NCBI GenBank assembly: GCA_913054475.1
Contig: CAJXJF010000011.1
Span: forward strand, 1-39,905
Direction: 5' to 3'
DNA: 39,905 nt
Source of the DNA: an uncultured Nitratifractor sp.
Lineage (GTDB): Bacteria > Campylobacterota > Campylobacteria > Campylobacterales > Sulfurovaceae
Shown here one piece after another: positions 1,423-22,916 of this stretch. The notes beneath the pieces were generated by a model. The model had not been told where the DNA came from. It worked only from the letters and a program-made list of their open reading frames with translations, and ran no database searches. Position 1 is the first letter of the stretch, and the number at the start of each line of letters is the position of its first letter. A program made the translations under genes and the position numbers.

Positions 1423-3837
1423 CTATCCTCTCTCTCCCTCGAATTTTATCCTCATCGAATTTCCGACCACTATCAGAGAACTGAGACTCATCGAGAGAGC
1501 GGCCACGAGAGGATTCACATGGCCCGCTACAGCCATCGGTACCGCCACCATATTGTAGAGCAGTGAGAGAGTGAGATTCTGCTTGACACTCCTGAAGGTT
1601 CTTACGGATATCTCGAAGGCATCGGCAAGAGCGGCGGGTTTGTCTTCGAGCAGTACGATATCGCTTACCTCTATCGCTATATCCGCTCCACCGCCCATAG
1701 CTACAGATATATCGCTTCTCGCCAGTGCCACCGTATCGTTTATGCCGTCTCCGGCCATAACCACGATATGTCCATCCTGCTGGAAACGCTCTACAAGCTC
1801 TGCCTTCTGCTGGGGAAGCAGGGCGGAGTGGACCCGTTTTATACCGGCCTCCCGTGCCACTATTTGTGCACTTCTGTCGTGGTCCCCCGTAAGCATCACT
1901 ATCTCCACTCCCATGCGCTCTATCCTGCGCAGAGCGTCCACCACTCCCTCTCTTATCCTGTCTCTGAGTTCGAACTCCGCCAGCACCCTCGAATCTACTG
2001 CGAAGATATATATGCTGTGTTGGGCTTCGAAATCGCATACGATACCATTCTCCTGCATCAGTGCCGGATTTCCGCCTATGATTTTTCTCTCTCCATAGGT
2101 GGCGCAGACCCCTTTGGCCTGGATACTTTTTATCTCTTTCAACTCCGGCTCATCCGAAACTTCGTAGTGCTCTCTCAGGTATCGTGCCACCCCCCTGCTC
2201 ACGGGGTGGTCCGAGCTTTCCGCCAAGGCCACTGCCAAAGCAGGGTCGAAGCCTTCGTCCGCCCGGAAGCGTACCACACTGGGGCGACCCTCCGTTATGG
2301 TTCCCGTCTTGTCGAGGGCCAGCAGATCGCTCCTAGCCACGGTTTCGAGCTGTGAAGCCTCTTTGAAGAGTATTCCCCGCTGGGCGGCTCTGGATATACC
2401 TACGAGAGTGGACATCGGAGTCGCGAGCCCCAAAGCGCACGGACAGGCTATGACGATGACGGAAATGGCGATAATGAGAGCCTTTTCGAAAGAGGCGCTA
2501 TAGTAGAGCCATCCGGCGAATGTTACAAGCGCGATAGTCAAAATCGCCAGCGAGAAGTAGCCAGATACGGTATTGGCCAACTGCTCTATTTTCGGTTTTT
2601 TCGTGATGGCATCGTTCAAAAGCTCCGTAATCGTATGCAAAAGAGATTCGTCGGCTCTCTTCGTCGCCCTGTAGCGCACCACGGAATCTATACATATAGT
2701 GGCGCTGAGAATCTCGTCTTCGGGCTCTTTCAATACAGGTTCGCTCTCTCCAGTGAGGGGACTCTCATCAAAAAGCGCACTGCCGCTCGTGAGTACACCA
2801 TCGACAGCTACCTTCTCTCCGGGCTTGAGCTCTATGATATCGCCGACTTCGATATTCTCTATCGAAACGAGTGTCTTCTCTGCTTCTCTGACGACGGTGG
2901 CTTCGGTAGGCATGGTCCCAGTTATCCTATCCATCGTATCGACCGCCCTCTTTTTGCTGAGAACTTCGAGATATTTACCCACGAGTACGAAGGTTATTAT
3001 CATGGTGGCCGAATCGAAATAGACTTCGCCGTGCATTGTCACCATCGCATATATAGAGTAGATATAGGCGAGTGTCGCTCCTGCGCTGACGAGGAGATCC
3101 ATATTGACGAAACGGTTCTTCAGACCGTACCATGCACCCCTGAAAAATATCCATCCGCTATAGAAGAGCGTAGGAGTGGCGAGGATGAACTCCGCTATGT
3201 TGAGTATGTTTTTGTGCCCTCTCTCCATACCGGTGAAGTAGCCCGCATACTGGGCGATGGCGATCCACATTATATTCATCGTCGCGAAGACCCCCACCAG
3301 TATGCGGGAGTAGTAGTCGTTCCTCATCTTCACCGCTCTCTCCTCCTGGAGTCTCGGGTCGTAGGGGTAGGCGTTGTAGCCTATGGAGCGAATCTTCTCT
3401 ATGATGGAGGAGAGTTTCACCACATCGGGATCCCATACCACATGGGCTTTGTTGTTGGAATAGTTTATCACCGCCTCCACCACTCCCTCCATCTGGTGCA
3501 AAACCTTTTCGTTGAGCCATACACAGGCCGAACAGTGTATCCCCTCGATAATGAGGTTTATCTCATTGAAACCTTCGGCAGTCTCTCTTACATATTTTCG
3601 GCTAAAGCCCTCGAGATCGAAACGCTCGAGATCGTCACGCTCTCTCTGCGCCGGTTCGAGACTGTTGTTACCGAGTTTTTCATAGAAGGTATCAAGGCCC
3701 TCCTCTTTGAGCAGATGATAGACTCCCTGGCAACCCTTGCAACAGAAATAGAGACTCTCTGCACCCTCACTCTTCTCCTCTATCATCACCGACTCATCGA
3801 AATCGAGTTGACAGTGCGAACATCGAACCTTGGCCAT
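1423..3837 (-). CDS. ccoI: CcoI/FixI-type copper-exporting P1B ATPase
   Basis: A protein of 804 residues in the inner membrane. In order it has: an N-terminal cysteine-rich domain with C6xxC9 and C32C33xxC36, typical of FixI/CcoI proteins; an HMA domain with GIHCSACVWL (C102, C105); the transmembrane CPC motif (ACPCALGLATP); the phosphorylation site DKTGTITEG; the HP locus SDHPVSRG; and the hinge GDGINDT. In the family it moves copper across the membrane to supply the CuB centre of cbb3 oxidase. The ATG at 3837 has GGTGGAGAG just upstream. No ccoNOP or ccoGHS genes are nearby, so it is separated from its usual cluster. It begins the minus-strand unit with hypA. A general CopA-type detoxifier is the alternative, but the double Cys N-terminus favours CcoI. 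Confidence 0.88.
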   Translation of the reverse strand: MAKVRCSHCQLDFDESVMIEEKSEGAESLYFCCKGCQGVYHLLKEEGLDTFYEKLGNNSLEPAQRERDDLERFDLEGFSRKYVRETAEGFNEINLIIEGIHCSACVWLNEKVLHQMEGVVEAVINYSNNKAHVVWDPDVVKLSSIIEKIRSIGYNAYPYDPRLQEERAVKMRNDYYSRILVGVFATMNIMWIAIAQYAGYFTGMERGHKNILNIAEFILATPTLFYSGWIFFRGAWYGLKNRFVNMDLLVSAGATLAYIYSIYAMVTMHGEVYFDSATMIITFVLVGKYLEVLSKKRAVDTMDRITGTMPTEATVVREAEKTLVSIENIEVGDIIELKPGEKVAVDGVLTSGSALFDESPLTGESEPVLKEPEDEILSATICIDSVVRYRATKRADESLLHTITELLNDAITKKPKIEQLANTVSGYFSLAILTIALVTFAGWLYYSASFEKALIIAISVIVIACPCALGLATPMSTLVGISRAAQRGILFKEASQLETVARSDLLALDKTGTITEGRPSVVRFRADEGFDPALAVALAESSDHPVSRGVARYLREHYEVSDEPELKEIKSIQAKGVCATYGERKIIGGNPALMQENGIVCDFEAQHSIYIFAVDSRVLAEFELRDRIREGVVDALRRIERMGVEIVMLTGDHDRSAQIVAREAGIKRVHSALLPQQKAELVERFQQDGHIVVMAGDGINDTVALARSDISVAMGGGADIAIEVSDIVLLEDKPAALADAFEISVRTFRSVKQNLTLSLLYNMVAVPMAVAGHVNPLVAALSMSLSSLIVVGNSMRIKFEGERG

Positions 3838-3940
3838 AATCTCTCCACCTTCATTTATTCGGAGATATTTTATCGTAAATATCGATACGACAGAGTTTGG
3901 AAAATCACGAATTTCAACAAAGAGAGAGAAAGAGAGAACT

Positions 3941-3954
3941 GGACTTCAGTCGCC
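3941..3954 (-). repeat. dispersed palindromic repeat, copy 2 (core only)
   Basis: GGACTTCAGTCGCC on the plus strand, the reverse complement of GGCGACTGAAGTCC. It shares the core of the repeats at 22-41 and 39855-39875. It lies in the 238-nt divergent gap between ccoI and the lipoprotein gene. Confidence 0.4.
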
Positions 3955-4021
3955 AACGATTTTACGCATATGGCGCTACCTTCGCAAAATAGGATTTCCT
4001 CATCGCATAGGCCTCCTACGC

Positions 4022-4027
4022 TATAAT
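4022..4027 (+). promoter_or_regulatory. candidate -10 box for the lipoprotein gene
   Basis: A perfect TATAAT 48 nt before the ATG at 4076. No recognisable -35 hexamer at the usual distance. Confidence 0.4.
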
Positions 4028-4075
4028 CTCCCAAGCGGTAACGAGCTATCGCAAAAACCGAAATTGGAGTATCAG

Positions 4076-4432
4076 ATGAAAAAGAGTCTCGTCGCCTCCC
4101 TGTGTATTGTTGCCCTCTTTTCGCTCTCATGTACGGACGAAGCGTCTCTCGTAGAAATGATGCAAAGAGGCAAAGCGGTGAGGAGCAGTTTCATAGGAAG
4201 AAAACTCAGCGCTTTCGAACTCTATGCCGGTCCCACCTACAAATGGAAAAATCTGCCCAACGGAGATAGCATACAGTACTGGCGCTCCGATATAGCGGGT
4301 TTTGTAGCTTCGAGAGGCGATGACGGACAAGGTACACTCTGTAGGTTGATTATTCTTACGGATGCTCAAAAGTATATAAAAGAGATAAGAGTGATCGAAG
4401 ACGGTATAGCCTGTGGGCCGGCATTAAGATAG
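4076..4432 (+). CDS. small lipoprotein of unknown function
   Basis: A protein of 118 residues. The first 19 form a lipoprotein signal: MKK, a hydrophobic stretch, then the lipobox LFSLSC with Cys20 followed by TDE, so the mature protein is lipid-anchored on the periplasmic side. The mature part (about 98 residues) contains a VEMMQRGKAVRSSFIGRKLSAF segment and two Cys (in TLCRLIIL and GIACGPALR) that could form a disulfide. I do not recognise a family. The ATG at 4076 is chosen because GGAG lies 6 nt upstream and the signal starts there; the open frame extends further upstream without one. It has its own terminator overlapping the stop codon and probably its own promoter, so it is likely monocistronic. 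Confidence 0.75.
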   Translation: MKKSLVASLCIVALFSLSCTDEASLVEMMQRGKAVRSSFIGRKLSAFELYAGPTYKWKNLPNGDSIQYWRSDIAGFVASRGDDGQGTLCRLIILTDAQKYIKEIRVIEDGIACGPALR

Positions 4433-4445
4433 GCCGGCCCTTTTT
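4415..4445 (+). terminator. Rho-independent terminator of the lipoprotein gene
   Basis: Perfect 8-bp stem GGGCCGGC (4415-4422) / GCCGGCCC (4433-4440), a 10-nt loop containing the TAG stop codon, then TTTTT (4441-4445). The T tract is only on the plus-strand side, so it serves the lipoprotein gene and not the convergent glnB. Confidence 0.9.
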
Positions 4446-4473
4446 ACCGGCAAAAGGAGCTGGGGAAAGGAGC

Positions 4474-5321
<848 letters not shown>

Positions 5322-14668: not shown

Positions 14669-14770
14669 ATATAGATTTGAAGAAAAACTTGCTTTGCGGC
14701 TCGATTTGAACGCTTATGGGCGAAGATTGGGTTGACGCAAAATACCCAAAAGTCGAATCCTTCGACAATC

Positions 14771-14839: not shown

Positions 14840-16687
14840 TTACTTTTCATAATTCAACATCAAAGTTATGCTTGAATTTGGCGAGAGAGTCTTTATAGAT
14901 ATGTCGCTATATCTCTCCTTTTTATTCTTTGCAATCACTTTGGCTTGCGTTTTGAGCATCTCGGCCTTTAGGGAGCCTACACTCTTCATATTATGCCAAT
15001 AGAGTCTAAATTTGAAATTCTTCACCTTGTGCTTATTTCTATTCTCTATATTCAATATGATATTTCTCGTCGTCATCTCGGTGGTGATTTTTATTCCGGA
15101 GAGAGTATTTGCCCTATATGCCAGATCTTTTCCTTTTAGAGTCACAAGCTCATCGTGCCTCTTGAGGTAATCGAAATAGGATTTTAGGATATGCAGATTT
15201 TTTGGTGCACTCATTATATGAGTATGGACACTCAGAGTATATAAGATATTCATCGAACTCAACATTTCAGTCTCGAATTTCATACTCTCAAGTATCTCTT
15301 TGTCGCTGCTGCCCATCTTTACAAAGTATTGAAAGTCGTCAGTTCCGTGTCTTGGTATAGTAATAAATCCCTCATGCTCCATAGTAGGAAGTAAGAATGT
15401 TTTTGTATGCTCCATCGTATATCCATAGCCCGATTCCTTCATACGCAAAGCCATAGCCTTGTCTATCTCTTCACGAGGCGGTCTGAAGCCTAAAACTTTC
15501 TTTCCTGTAATCTTTTCGAGCAATTTCTTGGAAAAATCTATCTCCTTCGTCATCTTCTCTTTGCTTGTTCCCATTATTTTGGTATGTGAATAGCTATGTG
15601 AGCCTATCTCTACATTCGGAAGTTTCGATATCTCTTTTGTAAGTTCCGTATTTTTTTCAGCATACTTACCCACACAAAAGAGTGTGGTATTGATATCATA
15701 CTTTCTTGCCAGCATGGAATAGCCATACATATTTCTATATTTATACTCCGTATCTTCCGAAATGAAAATCGCCTTACTACAATCGAGAAACGGATATGGG
15801 ACCACCCAAAACGGTTCTCTCAAAAATCGCACTGCACTACCGACTATAGAATCGAAAATCTTCTCTCCTCTCAATTCTATGAATGAATAAGCTGGAAACG
15901 AAAAGTAGTACCAGCTACCGCGACCATAGTTCCCATGCCATGCCACTGCTGCTTGTGATAGCTTCAATTTTTTGGAATGGACTTTCGGAGTAGAGGTAAC
16001 TTCCCAGTTGCTCAACAAGATATCGCCTGAATTTCCATTAGAGTCGAAGATAGGCAGAGGATCATATAAAATCAGATCATTTCTTGTGGGCACCGATTTG
16101 ATTGCACCAATAGGTGATAGGCTCTTTTGTATCATAAAAAATGCACCATTCTCCTCTTTGCTCAAGCTTTTATCCATGAACTTGAGATTTGTGATAGCTC
16201 TCACTCTCTTGTACGAATCGAATGGGCGACCATCGCTATTGCCGAAATATCCGAATCGATAGTTGAAAAAGAGCTTTCCTCCCTTTTTGACAAAGGACTT
16301 GATCTTTTCGAAATTGATATCACTCAATACATAAGTATCCAGTGCTATGAGCAGACTTCGGGCGGGTAGTTGCCCCAAAGCATCTTCGGAGACCATTTTT
16401 GTCTCGATACCAACCTTCTTGAGCCGTTTCGCAAAATTGTTGATTATCTTTTTGTACGAATCGGCGCTACCATTGCCCTTGATTAGATACTTCTCGGTCT
16501 CTTTCGAATACAATAGATAGACAGACTCGTTTCTCGCAAAAGGGAAAACAGCATTTTGCGAAAAGTTCAAAATTGGCAGCAGTTGATAAAATATCAATCC
16601 AGATAGAAGTGCAAAAAAGGTTATCACTCCAAAAACGATAGGCATATCGAGTTTGCTATCTCTACTATTCGTAATAGATATAGTCAT
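14840..16687 (-). CDS. membrane-anchored polysaccharide deacetylase (NodB fold) of the EPS operon
   Basis: A protein of 615 residues with one membrane helix at about 15-40 (VFGVITFFALLSGLIFYQLL) and a large periplasmic part. Residues 50-300 form a domain I do not recognise, with some look of a class-I amidotransferase-like fold (LLIALDTYVLSD, KKGGKLFFNYRFG). Residues 305-500 are a NodB deacetylase: motif 1 is SEDTE (310-314), where the usual first Asp is Glu311 and metal ligand Asp312 is kept; motif 2 is H364-S-Y-S-H368; motif 3 is FRPPREE (401-407); the last motif has VHTH (487-490). About 100 C-terminal residues look beta-rich. The RBS AAAGGAGGTG lies inside the 62-aa gene, which it overlaps by 23 nt. 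Role by analogy with PgaB, IcaB or PelA: partial deacetylation of an amino-sugar polymer during export. Confidence 0.85.
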   Translation of the reverse strand: MTISITNSRDSKLDMPIVFGVITFFALLSGLIFYQLLPILNFSQNAVFPFARNESVYLLYSKETEKYLIKGNGSADSYKKIINNFAKRLKKVGIETKMVSEDALGQLPARSLLIALDTYVLSDINFEKIKSFVKKGGKLFFNYRFGYFGNSDGRPFDSYKRVRAITNLKFMDKSLSKEENGAFFMIQKSLSPIGAIKSVPTRNDLILYDPLPIFDSNGNSGDILLSNWEVTSTPKVHSKKLKLSQAAVAWHGNYGRGSWYYFSFPAYSFIELRGEKIFDSIVGSAVRFLREPFWVVPYPFLDCSKAIFISEDTEYKYRNMYGYSMLARKYDINTTLFCVGKYAEKNTELTKEISKLPNVEIGSHSYSHTKIMGTSKEKMTKEIDFSKKLLEKITGKKVLGFRPPREEIDKAMALRMKESGYGYTMEHTKTFLLPTMEHEGFITIPRHGTDDFQYFVKMGSSDKEILESMKFETEMLSSMNILYTLSVHTHIMSAPKNLHILKSYFDYLKRHDELVTLKGKDLAYRANTLSGIKITTEMTTRNIILNIENRNKHKVKNFKFRLYWHNMKSVGSLKAEMLKTQAKVIAKNKKERYSDISIKTLSPNSSITLMLNYEK

Positions 16688-16853
16688 TTTCCACCTCCTT
16701 TAAGATCTCTTCGTAACTTTTTATTTCGACACCAAGATCCTTCTTTTTTCTCTTCTCTCTGGCTTTGTATAGAAAATATGCTATCACCCCAAAGATTAGA
16801 GTGACAATCGTAATCACCAGTATCAAAACCGACAGAAAACTCAATAAATTCAT
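16665..16853 (-). CDS. 62-aa single-helix membrane protein, PgaD-like partner of the synthase
   Basis: MNLLSFLSVLILV, continuing into one membrane helix (about residues 5-29), then a basic patch KAREKRKKKD and an acidic tail EEILKEVENDYIYYE. The helix plus cytoplasmic tail is the expected form of a small synthase partner. It overlaps the GT2 gene by 4 nt (ATGA) and the deacetylase gene by 23 nt, so it is translated with both. It is about half the length of E. coli PgaD (two helices), so the analogy rests on position, not homology. I regard it as a real gene because of the tight coupling and RBS-like AAAGGGAA upstream. Confidence 0.75.
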   Translation of the reverse strand: MNLLSFLSVLILVITIVTLIFGVIAYFLYKAREKRKKKDLGVEIKSYEEILKEVENDYIYYE

Positions 16854-18169
16854 AGATTCCCTTTTCGTTCAAGTTTGCCCCAGCTCATCTCTATTCCGAA
16901 CCACTCCTCGACTGTAGGAAAGATCTTGGCTATATTTATCACCTCTATGAAAAAGAGGCGATAGAACAGAGCGTAGAAAGCCAGCGAAAGCCTCTCTCCC
17001 GTAATCAAAACACAATAGAGCGCTCCAGCCATATCGAGAATACCGAAAAGCGCCCACCAGTAGAAGAGTAGAATACTCACTCCAGAATTGATGGCCAGAT
17101 AGATCATGAAGATATTGGCCCAGACATCTATGAACGGCCAGAAGATAGCTTCGAAGAGCATATACCACAGCACGAACGACACCGAAGGCTTTTTGCCTAT
17201 ATGCCAAAGAGCTCTCTTGTGTTTTCTGATAGCCTGTAGGATACCGCGTGTCCATCTGTATCTCTGTTTTATCAGATCCAGAAGGTTTTCGGGAGCTTCC
17301 GTGTAGGCCACAGCATCGGATTCGAACTCTATCCTGTAGTTGTGGCTTATCAGCTTGAGAGTCACATCGCAATCCTCGGCGAAGGTGTCATCGTCGTAGA
17401 GTCCCACTTCGTACAGAGCGCTCTTTCGAAACATACCTATAGGGCCGGGGATGATATTGACCAACTGCAAAAAGGCCTGTCCGTTTCTGACCATATTCAG
17501 GCCCTCCACATACTCCAGCGCCTGTAGTTTGGTAAGGAGCGAGTTTTGATTGCTTACATATACCGAGCCTGCCACAGCGGCTATTTCAGGGTCGTCGAAG
17601 TATGCCGCCATAAGCATGACGGCGTTGGGATCAAGTCTCGAATCGGCATCGACCACCATTATCAGTTCACCGCTGGAGTGCTCTATGCCGTAGTTTATCG
17701 CATTGGCCTTGCCGCCGTTTTTTTTGCGCAACACTCTGAGGCTTCTATCTCCGGTAGTAAACTCCATACGCTTGGCCTTGAGAAAGGTCCTATCCGAAGA
17801 GCCGTCGTCTATGACGATGATTTCCAGATTGGGATAGCTCTGCTTCAGGAGTGAGCGCAAAGCCTTTTCGATGACGACCTCTTCGTTGTATGCGGGTACC
17901 GTGATGGTGACTCTTTTGAACTTTCTTCGCTTTGTACTCAACTCCTCTATGGTATCGGCACTCTTGAAGATTGTCTTTACCATCGAAAAGAATAGTAGAA
18001 GCATATATCTCATGATAACCAATGCGGTGAAGATAAGCACAATAACCACACCGCTTTTTACAAAGAGATCTTCTACTTTGTAGAAATGATAATAGAAATA
18101 ATATAGGGCTATCGCCAATATCAAAACCAACGGCAAAGCCACCATTGCCGCTATGATAGGTCTTATCAT
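16850..18169 (-). CDS. processive GT2 polysaccharide synthase (PgaC/IcaA-like)
   Basis: A protein of 439 residues, close to E. coli PgaC. Two N-terminal helices (about 5-30 and 37-62) are followed by the GT2 catalytic domain: VPAYNEE (91-97), DDGSSD (121-126), DAD (174-176), the base in AEDCD (264-268) and QRYRW (302-306, the QxxRW of processive synthases). Then come about three more helices (330-420). Family members polymerise UDP-GlcNAc or related sugars and push the chain through the membrane. No PilZ domain is present, unlike BcsA, so any c-di-GMP control must come through partners. It overlaps its neighbours by 4 nt on each side. The sugar specificity is not readable; a deacetylase in the operon argues for an N-acetylated sugar. 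Confidence 0.9.
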   Translation of the reverse strand: MIRPIIAAMVALPLVLILAIALYYFYYHFYKVEDLFVKSGVVIVLIFTALVIMRYMLLLFFSMVKTIFKSADTIEELSTKRRKFKRVTITVPAYNEEVVIEKALRSLLKQSYPNLEIIVIDDGSSDRTFLKAKRMEFTTGDRSLRVLRKKNGGKANAINYGIEHSSGELIMVVDADSRLDPNAVMLMAAYFDDPEIAAVAGSVYVSNQNSLLTKLQALEYVEGLNMVRNGQAFLQLVNIIPGPIGMFRKSALYEVGLYDDDTFAEDCDVTLKLISHNYRIEFESDAVAYTEAPENLLDLIKQRYRWTRGILQAIRKHKRALWHIGKKPSVSFVLWYMLFEAIFWPFIDVWANIFMIYLAINSGVSILLFYWWALFGILDMAGALYCVLITGERLSLAFYALFYRLFFIEVINIAKIFPTVEEWFGIEMSWGKLERKGNL

Positions 18170-21100
18170 AGATATTTCCTAAAAGTTATGGAGCAATTAA
18201 GACTTCTATAACCGCTACCGCTACCGCCTGCACCGGTACCATTATCCATTTCGCAACCTATTTTGGATTCAAAGCCCGCATTCTTGCTGCTCTTGAGCCA
18301 CAATCCGCCATTGTACAAAACACTTTGATCTTCGAGGCTATAGCCAAGCGATACTTCTCCTTCGAGATTCCAATTTTTCGTAAAGGGCTTCCCAAGCCTT
18401 ATGGCAAAAAGCGTATTGTCAACTTTTTTCGGAGAATAGTAGCAATCCGTACTAAGAGAGTTTAGCTGATACCATCCGTACACTACAAAAACAAAATCAC
18501 TATTCCACTTCTGGATATTGTAAAACTCATAATCATACTGGAGCGTCAATACCCTATTACCATCATCGATATCCTCGAAAGCCAAGGACCACCACAAACC
18601 TTTGTGTTCGGCTATGTAGTGATATCCGCTTATTCGTGCTCTTGTCTGCATATGCTTGGCCGAACATGATGTCCGCTTATAATAGAGTAGATTACTTCTC
18701 TCGAGCGAGAGAGTGATAGAATCTCCAAACAGAGTGGTCTCATATCCCAAAGACCATCCCAGCTTACCCTTCCCTTCGAGATAGTTTTCGACAACTTTTG
18801 CCGACAAGCCCTTGTATTTCGCTCCCAAACCATAAAATCCACCTCTATATTTGGCATGATCGTCATCTACACGATAGGCTCCACCCAAGAGTGAAAGCCA
18901 CATATCGTCCCCAACTTCATTAGAGAGCGAAAAGCTCGAGTCATACATCGATATACCGGCATTGTCTCGAAAATAGTTAGTGTCGAGGTCTATGGATATG
19001 CGCCGTCGGTCGTCCTCTTTTTCCGACGGCGCTTCCAACTTTCCCGAGACACTATCTCCATTCAATTTACGATGCCTATTTCGTCGATGCACTCTATTGT
19101 TGCCTTCTCTTTTTTTCAGAAATAAGTTTTGCGTCTTCTCTGCTTGCAGCTCTTCGAGTCGCTGTGCAATCTCTTTTCCTAAAGGATCACTGTTTCGAGA
19201 CGGTATATACTTCGACTCTTTAAAACTTTCCGATTCTATCAGGCAACTATCATCCGTACACTCTACGACAAGCTCCACATAGCCGTTTCTCTTTTCGATC
19301 TTGGAGGCATATGTCTCATAAAAGCCAAGCCTATATCTATCGTTTTCCTGTTTCAGAAGCGTCGAATCATATATACCAATCGATATAAAATCACTTTTTC
19401 TAAACAGATTCTCCACCTTAAGCAGCATATCACTCATTTGAGAGTCGTTTACATCATACAAAGATACATACGCTCGCGCATCCAGCTTCTCTTGTGCATT
19501 TTTCCAACGCTTGAGAAATGACTTTAGCAGCACAGGCGGATCTTTTGGCAATCTCTCAAGAAGCTTTCTATATACCTTCTGAGCTCTTTGAGGTTCGTTC
19601 GATTTCTGAAGATTGTAGGCATAGTGATAGATGATATTTTCATCATCAACCATCCACTGCATCAGATAAAATTCCCCCGCAGCCTCTTTGTATCTACCGC
19701 TTTTCTCCAGCGCCATGGCATATCTCTCTCTGGCGCTGTAGTCTTCGGGCTCCTCTTGGATATAGCTCCAGTAGTAGTCGGCGGCAGTCTTAAAGAGCCC
19801 TCCTTTATAGGCTCTATCGGCCATCTCGAGAAGTCTTCTATCGGCCTTCTTGCCACCGCCTCCTCCTTCGTCTTCTTTATTCTTGTGTCTAACGAGATTT
19901 AGATATCTCGGTCTGCTCTTGAGTGCTTTGGCCTTGAGTACCATAGCTTTCCTGTCATCGGGATAGAGCCTGAGCAGATCGTCGAGTACGGATACAGCCG
20001 CATCCTCATAGCCGTACCAAATATACCTCTGTGCCAACTCATAGAGAGATTTTCTACTGGAGAGAAAATTGCCATAATACTCCCAGTCTCCAAAGCCTTT
20101 GTATAGATTTTTGGTTTCCAAATAGAGATCTCCGGCGCTCTTGTAGGTATCTATATTGTGCGGATTCTCCTCTATCATCTTTTCATAGATAGAGAGTGCT
20201 TTTTTCTTCTCCCCAGCCGCAGAATATAGCTCTGCAAGCCTACTTCTTATCTCGCTATTTTGTGGGTCTTCTTGTAGTCTCTTCTCATATTTTCGGATAA
20301 GTTCATCTGTTTTGCCTCTGAGCAACAATAGCGACTCTTTTATCTCTTGATCATCCTTCATCACCTTTTCAAGCTTCTCGAAGAGCTCTCTTGCCATATC
20401 TTTATTACCGCTCCACAGATATATATTGGCCTTGAGCTTCAAAGCTTCGTATCTCTTTTTGGTCTTATCGCTCCCTTGGATTTTATCGATAATATCGAGT
20501 GCCCTTTTGTATTCTCCCTTCCAAGCAAAGACCTTGGCCTTGAACAATCTTGCGTCGGAAAAATGCAAATCGTCTATCGAATCGATCATCTTTATCGACT
20601 CATCATACTTTCCCATCCACGCAAGCAGTTTGGCACCCAGCAATCTGCCTTCCCTATCTTCGGGATGAGAGAGAGTATATTTCCGCACTATATCGAGGGC
20701 CTTGGGAGGATTCTCCTCATAGAGTGCAAAAGCCAACGGTTCCAGATTTCTGTAGCTCGGCTCTTTACGGTAAATCTCTTCGAGCTTTTTGAGATTTTGC
20801 TTGAGTTTTTTTTGCAACTTTTTCGTTATCGCACCGCTGCCTTTGCAAATTTTACCTCTCTTTTTAAGATATTTAAGGAATCTCTTCGTATCGTACAATC
20901 TACCATCTTCGAGATAGATCTTCATTATCTTCGTAGCATATCTACACTCACCGGTTGTGAAATAGAGTTTTTTCAATATTTTTATAGCACATGCCGAATC
21001 TCCAAGCTCTTTACAATCTTCGGCTTTTATCTCATACGCATCGAGATTATCTTTTTCGACTCTGTTTAAAACCTCGAGAGAGAGTTTATATTTCCCATCC

Positions 21101-21534
21101 CACATAGCCACTCTTGCTATGTTGATTAAACTCTTTACAGATAGCCCAATCTTCGAGATTGTATCGGTATTTTTAAAATGTAGATAGAGTGAAATTATTT
21201 TTTTGTATTGCTCTTTTTCGTAGAGTTGTTGAATATACTCATTGATATCCCTCTTACCCTCTATCGCCTCTTCAATCAAGACATCCACTCTCGCCTTTTC
21301 ATATAACTTTTTTGCAGTCTCATTTTTCGGATCGATTTGTAAAACCTTTTTTATAAGTGATAGCGATTTGATGCTCTCGTTGTGCTCCATATAGTATCTG
21401 GAGAGAGCGAGTCTATTTTTTATATCCTCTGGGTTGAGCTTTACACTCTCTTTAAGATCGTTTTCATTCACCTCCAATGACGAAAGCGACAATGTAGAGG
21501 CTATCCACAGTAGGCCCCAAACTACTTTTCGCAT
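18166..21534 (-). CDS. outer-membrane TPR/beta-barrel polysaccharide exporter with an NTF2-like insert
   Basis: A protein of 1122 residues. Signal peptide at 1-20 (VVWGLLWIASTLSLSS). Many TPR-type helix pairs from about 25 to 665 (for example NRLALSRYYMEHNE, RLAELYSAAGEKKKALSIYE, ARERYAMALEKSGRYKEAAG). Residues about 672-770 look like an NTF2/SnoaL-type domain (RWKNAQEKLDARAYVSLYD ... YRLGFYETYAS ... ELVVECTDDSCLIESESF). A very basic linker follows at about 808-824. The last 275 residues are alternating strands of a beta barrel ending in FRKYL. PgaA, BcsC and PelB likewise combine periplasmic TPRs with a barrel that exports polysaccharide. I chose ATG 21534 because GAGGAGAAG precedes it and the signal peptide starts there; the open frame allows a start 24 nt earlier. 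It overlaps the regulator gene by 13 nt and the GT2 gene by 4 nt. Confidence 0.85.
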   Translation of the reverse strand: MRKVVWGLLWIASTLSLSSLEVNENDLKESVKLNPEDIKNRLALSRYYMEHNESIKSLSLIKKVLQIDPKNETAKKLYEKARVDVLIEEAIEGKRDINEYIQQLYEKEQYKKIISLYLHFKNTDTISKIGLSVKSLINIARVAMWDGKYKLSLEVLNRVEKDNLDAYEIKAEDCKELGDSACAIKILKKLYFTTGECRYATKIMKIYLEDGRLYDTKRFLKYLKKRGKICKGSGAITKKLQKKLKQNLKKLEEIYRKEPSYRNLEPLAFALYEENPPKALDIVRKYTLSHPEDREGRLLGAKLLAWMGKYDESIKMIDSIDDLHFSDARLFKAKVFAWKGEYKRALDIIDKIQGSDKTKKRYEALKLKANIYLWSGNKDMARELFEKLEKVMKDDQEIKESLLLLRGKTDELIRKYEKRLQEDPQNSEIRSRLAELYSAAGEKKKALSIYEKMIEENPHNIDTYKSAGDLYLETKNLYKGFGDWEYYGNFLSSRKSLYELAQRYIWYGYEDAAVSVLDDLLRLYPDDRKAMVLKAKALKSRPRYLNLVRHKNKEDEGGGGGKKADRRLLEMADRAYKGGLFKTAADYYWSYIQEEPEDYSARERYAMALEKSGRYKEAAGEFYLMQWMVDDENIIYHYAYNLQKSNEPQRAQKVYRKLLERLPKDPPVLLKSFLKRWKNAQEKLDARAYVSLYDVNDSQMSDMLLKVENLFRKSDFISIGIYDSTLLKQENDRYRLGFYETYASKIEKRNGYVELVVECTDDSCLIESESFKESKYIPSRNSDPLGKEIAQRLEELQAEKTQNLFLKKREGNNRVHRRNRHRKLNGDSVSGKLEAPSEKEDDRRRISIDLDTNYFRDNAGISMYDSSFSLSNEVGDDMWLSLLGGAYRVDDDHAKYRGGFYGLGAKYKGLSAKVVENYLEGKGKLGWSLGYETTLFGDSITLSLERSNLLYYKRTSCSAKHMQTRARISGYHYIAEHKGLWWSLAFEDIDDGNRVLTLQYDYEFYNIQKWNSDFVFVVYGWYQLNSLSTDCYYSPKKVDNTLFAIRLGKPFTKNWNLEGEVSLGYSLEDQSVLYNGGLWLKSSKNAGFESKIGCEMDNGTGAGGSGSGYRSLNCSITFRKYL

Positions 21535-22916
21535 AACTTCTCCTCTATAGATTTCCAATTGAGCACATCACTTATCTCTTCTATTTCGAAACTATCGAGC
21601 GAATCGAATTTGACATCCACAATCCTCTTTACCGTATCTACCCTACTGTTGATAAAGGCAATTATAACACTATTGCCCACTTTGCATACGACATCCCGCT
21701 CCCTTATCTTCGTTTCGATAGACTCTATATCTATATCGCCTATCGCCGTCAAAAGCGAAAAATATATACCTTGAGTCTGTAAATCACGCAGAAATTCGCA
21801 CAACTCCCCAATTTTATCTCCATACTTTTTCTCACTTAGAGATAAATTCTCTATTTTGGAAGAGTAGAATCTACTATCGAGTATTCTCTCGATCGACATT
21901 ATATACTCTTCGAATATAAAGTTTCTGGAGAAGATATCGTAACAACCCATCTTTGCCGCATCGAGTTTATCTGTAGATCTCACATACTCTTTATCCAAAA
22001 TAGATATGATTTTCGATTTCAGACCATATTGCGATATAAGTTTGGATATCTCCACTATTTCACTACTATCGGAGGTGTCCAGTATTATCAAATCGGGCCC
22101 CTTCATTACCGCAGTGGCCACGGCGACTGGAGAGGATACGACACTAAGATTTAGTTGCGAACCCCCAAAGATGAATCTGTTTAATGCCACAAACTCTTCT
22201 TCTCGGGCTATAAGGAGAATTTCACAACTCTCGCTCTTGGTGACACTAGTGCTATAGTCAATCTCTTTCGACTTCGCTTCTTCCATCGTAGTCAGCTTCA
22301 ATTTGTTGTCAATCTTACAAAAAGTATATCCACCCTCTTTCACAGGATAGATAGAGCTAAGCACCTCCACCTCTCTTGCATTATTACCCTTTTTAACCAT
22401 TAGATTCATATCCATATAGTTTTCGAGTATGTCGTGAATGAAACTCTGCTCATCCCCAATCATACCGGTAGTGATGAACAATTTGAACTCTCTTCTCTTT
22501 TTTATGGATATGATTGTCTCGATAAACCACTCCGCATCAGAGCTCTCTTGTATTTCAAACATCGCATCGAGTCTATGAAGTATCACTATATTGGCAGATA
22601 CTTTCTCTATGGCCTTTTCTATATCGTTGGCGATAAATTCCAAACCATAAAGAGCCTTCAATTCTCGATAGTTCTCCTTTAGACACAAAAGCTCTATTTG
22701 CTGCAAACACTCACGCAATTCATTGTCAGCAAAATCGGATATTATAGATATCCTTTTATTCATGAGCGACCTTGGAAAAGGAGAGAATATAACCACATGG
22801 GAGCTATCATCTATAAGTTTACAAGAACAAAAGAGAGTAAAAGTGAGCTTACCCTGCTTTTTTCCACCCTCGACGAGCAAAAATTCCGAATTTTCAATAG
22901 CTTCTTCTAAGTTCAA
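21522..22916 (-). CDS. BcsE-like three-domain c-di-GMP receptor candidate heading the EPS operon
   Basis: A protein of 464 residues, no signal or membrane helix. Residues 1-200 look like a degenerate RecA/KaiC-type NTPase: the P-loop position reads EGGKKQGKL (Leu24 where Ser/Thr is needed) and NIVILHRLDAMF (109-120) stands at the Walker B position. Residues 231-346 resemble a receiver: PDLIILD with Asp280 is kept, but the acidic pair is Ala237-Arg238 and the conserved Lys is Arg331 (FSRNF). Residues 355-455 resemble GGDEF, but the signature is GNSVI (414-418), so it cannot be a cyclase. Exactly five residues before it is RERD (405-408), the RxxD I-site that binds c-di-GMP. This order of three degenerate domains is that of BcsE. 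The start is TTG at 22916 with AGGAAGG upstream. Function is inference from architecture. Confidence 0.7.
   Translation of the reverse strand: MNLEEAIENSEFLLVEGGKKQGKLTFTLFCSCKLIDDSSHVVIFSPFPRSLMNKRISIISDFADNELRECLQQIELLCLKENYRELKALYGLEFIANDIEKAIEKVSANIVILHRLDAMFEIQESSDAEWFIETIISIKKRREFKLFITTGMIGDEQSFIHDILENYMDMNLMVKKGNNAREVEVLSSIYPVKEGGYTFCKIDNKLKLTTMEEAKSKEIDYSTSVTKSESCEILLIAREEEFVALNRFIFGGSQLNLSVVSSPVAVATAVMKGPDLIILDTSDSSEIVEISKLISQYGLKSKIISILDKEYVRSTDKLDAAKMGCYDIFSRNFIFEEYIMSIERILDSRFYSSKIENLSLSEKKYGDKIGELCEFLRDLQTQGIYFSLLTAIGDIDIESIETKIRERDVVCKVGNSVIIAFINSRVDTVKRIVDVKFDSLDSFEIEEISDVLNWKSIEEKLCEK

Follow-up and report, generated by a model that had tools for sequence, protein, structure and literature searches.

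To our knowledge, the literature so far presents BcsE solely as an accessory of cellulose synthase, an enzyme that senses cyclic di-GMP (c-di-GMP) directly through its PilZ domain. In the Pga system (pgaABCD) for poly-N-acetylglucosamine (PNAG), the receptor is the interface between the synthase PgaC and the small membrane protein PgaD. In the Pel system (PelA, PelB, PelD), it is PelD, a membrane GAF-GGDEF protein with an RxxD site in a degenerate GGDEF domain. In the Nfr system of Escherichia coli (nfrBA-ybcH), c-di-GMP is bound by an MshEN domain of the synthase itself (PMC8669469). Here we describe a five-gene operon (genes A to E; positions 14840-22916, minus strand) in a stretch of 39,905 nucleotides (hereafter the window) from an uncultured Nitratifractor sp. 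of the Campylobacterota (contig CAJXJF010000011.1). The operon encodes a BcsE-like receptor (A), a predicted outer-membrane exporter (B), a family 2 glycosyltransferase (GT2) synthase (C), a small membrane protein (D), and a membrane-anchored polysaccharide deacetylase (E). In its receptor part, the operon would function in the manner of Bcs, and in synthesis, modification, and export in the manner of Pga or Pel. It belongs to none of these three systems, because their defining features were tested and are lacking; we regard it as a new form of synthase-dependent exopolysaccharide secretion. The original prediction for this DNA noted no described system with this gene combination. In agreement with this, no description of the locus, of its gene order, or of the combination was found in the open-licence literature (subscription journals were mostly outside this scope, and priority is unproven).

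Among the systems compared, the type II Bcs system of E. coli (bcsEFG) shares with the operon a three-domain receptor fold with two RxxD motifs and a receptor gene that stands first. In addition, a small one-helix membrane protein is followed by a membrane-anchored polymer-modifying enzyme in both, such that the order bcsE-bcsF-bcsG parallels A...D-E. However, the operon lacks BcsA/B, PilZ, BcsQ/R, and the phosphoethanolamine transferase; its synthase is PgaC/NodC-like, and the predicted modification is deacetylation. The likeness to Pga consists of a tetratricopeptide repeat (TPR)/barrel exporter, a deacetylase, and a GT2 synthase that is accompanied by an adjacent small membrane protein. Unlike in Pga, the putative c-di-GMP receptor is a separate BcsE-like protein, and E has a Rossmann-like domain in place of the PgaB hydrolase domain. 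Pel likewise has a TPR/barrel exporter, a deacetylase, and a separate c-di-GMP receptor whose RxxD site lies in a degenerate GGDEF domain, but PelF is a GT4 enzyme, and for other inner-membrane Pel subunits the operon has no equivalent. Finally, Nfr has a c-di-GMP-controlled glycosyltransferase, a TPR/barrel exporter, and a membrane-anchored periplasmic protein, but neither a deacetylase nor a separate receptor.

Putative receptor A and its candidate anchor

Gene A (21522-22916, minus strand) starts with TTG and encodes 464 amino acids, with a RecA-like (NTPase-like) domain followed by a degenerate receiver (REC*) domain and a degenerate GGDEF (GGDEF*) domain. AlphaFold models A as three alpha/beta domains (pLDDT 84; predicted template modeling score, pTM, 0.51). 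Among 350,542 PDB chains, the best five fold matches of this model are all E. coli BcsE (9fo7, 9fp0, 9fnn twice, and 9fp2), with E values from 2.5e-17 to 1.8e-14 over about 498 columns that span the whole length of BcsE. Both RxxD motifs are among the few conserved columns in the alignment of A with its relatives, with the arginine present in 33 of the 34 sequences and the aspartate in all 34. A profile alignment and a separate multiple alignment both place motif 1 (R313-S-T-D316 in REC*; 21969-21980, minus strand) on R306ATD of BcsE and motif 2 (R405-E-R-D408 in GGDEF*; 21693-21704, minus strand) on the I-site R415TGD. In E. coli, R415TGD in the degenerate GGDEF domain is needed for c-di-GMP binding, whereas R306ATD in the degenerate receiver improves the affinity from about 2.5 uM to about 140 nM (PMC11470070). 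Because A of Campylobacterota escapes detection by the curated BcsE model of Pfam, A is well supported as BcsE-like by modeled fold and by motif, not by sequence model. The original prediction of a BcsE-like receptor at the head of a non-cellulose, synthase-dependent operon is supported, and neither of its refuting conditions applied: A shows the BcsE fold and is syntenic with the other four genes, and a described locus of this order did not emerge from the open-licence literature. The conserved RxxD motifs and the Burkholderiaceae loci described below add to this support.

KaiC chains rank next after BcsE in the fold search, and A has a Walker-A-like GxxxxGKLT (residues 17-25 in the RecA-like domain; 22842-22868, minus strand) that, in the alignment of 34 receptors, is mostly kept in loci with the layout A-B-C-D-E. 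In L056, a remote relative of the operon in the uncultured TVG05_bin235, a KaiC-type ATPase with an intact P-loop and a receiver domain (3072-4547, plus strand) precedes B in place of A; this protein is possibly a form near the origin of the BcsE architecture. Moreover, in 11 loci the neighbor of A is a histidine kinase gene whose product has FecR-like and TPR parts (e.g., L013:10117-12012, minus strand), and an OmpR-type response regulator is found near the operon in 15 (e.g., L013:13465-14112, minus strand). A may thus be read as a KaiC-like ATPase or scaffold that senses a nucleotide and is no c-di-GMP receptor, with control exerted by the upstream kinase and regulator of many loci. We consider this very improbable. 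The Walker-like loop is lost in loci with the layout B-A-C-D-E, whereas both RxxD sites are kept in both layouts, which suggests that c-di-GMP binding rather than ATP binding is the property kept by selection. The kinase is missing in the window, as in many loci, and the window also lacks the response regulator. Furthermore, a RecA-like N-terminal domain belongs to BcsE itself (PMC7439463), where it has been termed catalytically incompetent (PMC11470070).

For a BcsE-like receptor, gene D (16665-16853, minus strand) may provide the membrane anchor. It encodes 62 amino acids with one transmembrane helix predicted from sequence, and the positively charged stretch after this helix would place the tail in the cytosol (positive-inside rule). 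After a variable linker, the tail ends in a conserved aromatic strand (e.g., Y-[ILV]-[FY]-F-E) in both layouts. E. coli BcsF has 63 amino acids and is encoded between BcsE and the membrane-anchored BcsG in bcsEFG, so D is similar in both length and operon place. BcsF is a single-pass protein that recruits BcsE by extending the sheet of its N-terminal domain with a strand from the cytosolic tail of BcsF (PMC11470070). The topology and the conserved terminal strand of D fit an anchor of this type, and an economical reading is that D anchors A. The original prediction had likened D to the small membrane partner of Pga. D has no match to PgaD (controls 58 and 298 bits) and has one helix instead of two, and it is better compared with BcsF.

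Conservation of the five-gene set

Loci were located via E, since a single-sequence search with A returned almost no family members. Of 397 Campylobacterota genomes, 10 from 8 genera contain E, and a reverse search with a profile of A recovered full-length A in exactly the same 10. The other four genes are beside E in all nine loci outside the window and in G048, which belongs to the same family as the window and has a gene A truncated by the contig end. Because A and E share the same genomes and the five genes are neighbors wherever the contig is long enough, the association is not a matter of chance. The remaining matches to the profile of A are receiver domains, except for stand-alone proteins in two genomes. 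Stand-alone REC*-GGDEF* proteins of 266-269 amino acids with both RxxD motifs kept (L077:7603-8403, minus strand; L078:5726-6535, plus strand) are located among housekeeping genes with no exopolysaccharide genes nearby, and may be free c-di-GMP receptors.

A scan of GTDB genomes with the alignment of E produced 35 loci, some of which represent the same places. Genes A, B, C, D, and E are adjacent in every contig that reaches far enough, across Campylobacterota as well as in Gammaproteobacteria and Burkholderiaceae; where A is missing, a contig end truncates the locus, except in the two most remote ones, L056 and L057. Two layouts were found. The window shares the layout A-B-C-D-E with the rest of a Nautiliaceae-like group and with three Gammaproteobacteria (Marinobacterium jannaschii, Pontibacterium sinense, and a Methylococcales metagenome-assembled genome, MAG), while thirteen other Campylobacterales loci have B-A-C-D-E. 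The latter cluster in the tree of C (13 rows, support 99/100); the E. coli PgaC and BcsA branches in this tree have a length of 10, so that only the grouping of layouts was used and not the outgroup placement. Sequence identity in ten relatives is 57-76% for C, and identity among relatives of A is only 21-38%. Two MAGs have two copies of the operon each (L047 and L049; L038 and L055). Searches of plasmids with the deacetylases gave partial matches or none.

The link between A and BcsE at the sequence level comes from the Burkholderiaceae. In the MAG that contains L057, an E-like deacetylase is encoded beside a TPR/barrel exporter and a protein that matches Pfam BcsE at 199.5 bits (cut-off 25) and the NCBIfam BcsE model below its cut-off (154 versus 245 bits). 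The end of the L057 contig is identical over 127 nt to the end of another contig from the same genome, which begins with C and continues with D and E. A second Burkholderiaceae genome has an unbroken A-B-C-D-E on one contig, in which A is a Pfam BcsE at 223.7 bits (cut-off 25) and C scores about 490-500 bits with the profile of the window family. Thus, the five-gene order occurs with a receptor that is BcsE by sequence.

Synthesis, modification, and export

Gene C (16850-18169, minus strand) encodes a putative processive GT2 synthase of 439 amino acids, with the motifs DDGS, DAD, ED, and QRYRW invariant in 11 sequences. It is nearest to PgaC (31% identity over 286 amino acids; E 6e-42), and the best-scoring models are those of PgaC/IcaA and NodC, which are N-acetylglucosamine (GlcNAc) polymerases. 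Gene B (18166-21534, minus strand; 1122 amino acids from an ATG at 21534) has a signal peptide, a TPR superhelix with repeats recognized by Pfam, and a C-terminal barrel-like region for which a profile found no match to PgaA or BcsC. Nearly all relatives of B end in tryptophan, which is frequent at the C-terminus of outer-membrane barrels, while the window copy ends in leucine. The TPR and barrel parts of B are encoded by separate genes in L018, L021, and L022.

Gene E (14840-16687, minus strand; 615 amino acids) has a transmembrane helix (residues 15-36) and a Pfam Polysacc_deac_1 domain. In its AlphaFold model (pTM 0.80), a Rossmann-like domain, a CE4 domain, and a beta-sandwich follow the membrane anchor, and the fold search relates the Rossmann-like domain to the trimerization domain of GH42 enzymes. 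The likely catalytic residues D312, E314, H364, H368, R402, and H488 are present in all 47 sequences aligned, and CE4 motifs 1, 2, 3, and 5 can be recognized, although motif 1 is unusual in having SEDTE in place of TFDD. The D312-x-E314 spacing equals that of D528-x-D530 in the PelA deacetylase, where an acidic residue likewise follows at this distance (PMC12022489). Differences from PelA are that E keeps the CE4 arginine (R402) missing there and has no glycoside hydrolase domain. In the fold search, the match that spans most of E is NDST1, a human heparan sulfate N-deacetylase (9f6z; E 2.3e-11, 557 columns), with poor global superposition.

These similarities raise the question of whether the locus is a divergent PNAG operon, with C as PgaC, B as PgaA, E as PgaB, and D as an analog of PgaD, such that c-di-GMP would act at the C-D interface as in PgaCD and A would be an accessory. 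C is indeed closest to PgaC, B and E share kinds of function with PgaA and PgaB, and D directly follows C and ranks second in conservation within the set. However, all four proteins fail the corresponding family models. C scores 204.5 bits with the PgaC/IcaA model TIGR03937 (cut-off 422.3) and B scores 42.6 bits, in the TPR part only, with the PgaA model TIGR03939 (cut-off 366.65). D and E have no match to the PgaD and PgaB models, respectively. The E. coli controls all pass (PgaC 648, PgaA 979, PgaB 880, and PgaD 58 bits). In addition, the architecture of E differs from that of PgaB, a GH8 gene follows E in many relatives, D has one helix where PgaD has two, and A is as invariably present as C. 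A divergent PNAG operon is therefore unlikely. Of the label "Pga-like" in the original prediction, the part that concerns C remains, while B, D, and E are not PgaA, PgaD, and PgaB by family models.

Regarding the polymer, the proximity of C to synthases of GlcNAc polymers and the presence of a deacetylase suggest a probably partly deacetylated amino-sugar chain. The genes downstream of E differ among loci. A GH8 gene (PF01270) is directly after E in 13 loci (e.g., L034:6973-8172, plus strand), all of which have the layout B-A-C-D-E where the layout is visible. Chitosanases and endoglucanases both belong to GH8, so that a chain with beta-1,4 linkages would match its presence better than PNAG. 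Another 18 loci encode F1, a secreted protein of about 330 amino acids, directly after E (e.g., L013:1029-2024, minus strand). F1 has invariant acidic residues (NPE, FQEMR) and no match in Pfam or PDB; perhaps it belongs to a new glycoside hydrolase family, although this is only a guess. In the window, neither GH8 nor F1 is next to E, and the genome of the window has no GH8 match. Elsewhere in this genome, a remote fragment match to F1 is present (G000:C4:33139-33528; 28% identity over 127 amino acids).

Alternatively, the polymer may contain no amino sugar. In this case C would make a beta-glucan or cellulose-like chain, E would be an O-acetyl esterase, and the operon, together with its BcsE, would be a variant of cellulose loci. 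In favor of this, BcsE is elsewhere linked to cellulose, GH8 is also the family of BcsZ, and CE4 enzymes, as seen among the PDB matches of E, can act on acetyl xylan. Nevertheless, C scores only 78 bits with the cellulose synthase model versus 204 with that of PgaC, and it has no PilZ domain. In the window and its relatives, A is not accompanied by a cellulose synthase bcsA/bcsB, and no bcsB-like gene is present between A and E. Moreover, E is never missing, and GlcNAc polymerases are usually paired with a de-N-acetylase, while GH8 also holds chitosanases. A cellulose-like product thus appears improbable, and an amino-sugar polymer is the preferred reading.

Taken together, the operon would encode one envelope-spanning machine for a synthase-dependent exopolysaccharide. 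In the inner membrane, C would polymerize a nucleotide-activated sugar, most likely UDP-N-acetylhexosamine, and extrude the chain. E, anchored in the same membrane with its catalytic part in the periplasm, would strip acetyl groups from the chain, which B would guide along its TPR superhelix and release via the outer-membrane barrel. In the cytosol, A would bind c-di-GMP by the two RxxD motifs of its degenerate receiver and GGDEF domains, in the same manner as E. coli BcsE. D probably tethers A to the synthase as BcsF tethers BcsE, and c-di-GMP-loaded A would then switch C on through an A-D-C contact. The polymer may have a role in surface attachment or biofilm formation. As a whole, this mechanism of a receptor-controlled, deacetylated exopolysaccharide machine is considered likely.

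Several observations weigh against this mechanism. A has no Pfam match at E<1, and PF10995 (BcsE) is not matched in the 14 carrier genomes. In a profile comparison, A matches BcsE weakly (52% probability, E 1.4e-4 for one comparison), with a BcsE side of two sequences, as further homolog searches yielded a single one. Whole-chain TM scores of A against BcsE are low (about 0.3), because the domain orientation differs from that in BcsE, and the pTM of the model is itself modest. Sequence searches of A against PDB returned mostly receiver domains, and the BcsE match emerged only by fold. In the L057 receptor, the first RxxD is RHAN, although the second is retained. D has no sequence match to BcsF, and its conservation together with C would fit equally well a main role as a subunit of the synthase. 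Since the operon has no BcsQ/BcsR-like gene and the synthase has no PilZ domain, the contacts of E. coli BcsE cannot be the same here. The GGDEF and EAL proteins encoded in all 14 carrier genomes searched (9 and 7 matches, respectively, in the genome of the window) speak for c-di-GMP control, which requires them, but this support is weak because such proteins are common. Finally, the substrate of C cannot be read from the sequence.

A is the only visible candidate for a c-di-GMP receptor in an operon whose synthase has no PilZ domain, and a direct effect of BcsE on a synthase becomes testable without the BcsA background. One of the carriers, M. jannaschii DSM 6295, is a type-collection strain, so experiments are possible. 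The operon also suggests that the BcsE-type switch is a module used beyond cellulose and that Campylobacterota, many of which come from hydrothermal vents, make an undescribed matrix polymer. More broadly, BcsE with a BcsF-type anchor may be a portable c-di-GMP switch for exopolysaccharide synthases generally. Such a switch would control an as yet undescribed family of deacetylated, perhaps chitosan-like polymers in Campylobacterota, Gammaproteobacteria, and Burkholderiaceae, with cellulose as only one output. For this broader proposal, we regard the chances as evenly balanced.

Operon structure and flanking genes in the window

The five open reading frames were confirmed as minus-strand genes arranged head to tail with neighbor overlaps of 4-23 nt, and the products and coordinates given in the original prediction were all correct. 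A and B overlap by 13 nt if B starts at its ATG and by 37 nt if it starts at an alternative TTG, and the overlaps of B/C, C/D, and D/E are 4, 4, and 23 nt, respectively. In the loci found, D lies between C and E. Strong purine-rich Shine-Dalgarno-like sequences precede A, B, and E. About 75 nt downstream of E, a consensus scan identified a terminator-like hairpin with a T run (14752-14766, minus strand), which is a weak candidate, since such matches are only mildly above those in shuffled sequences. The G+C content of the operon is 0.34-0.47, compared with 0.47-0.50 in the longer flanks, and a single-sequence search did not find receptor A in 12 other genomes of the same genus. The operon may therefore have been acquired by transfer. 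Based on their translations, we assign housekeeping roles to the genes on one flank and roles in sugar-nucleotide metabolism and type I secretion to those on the opposite flank.

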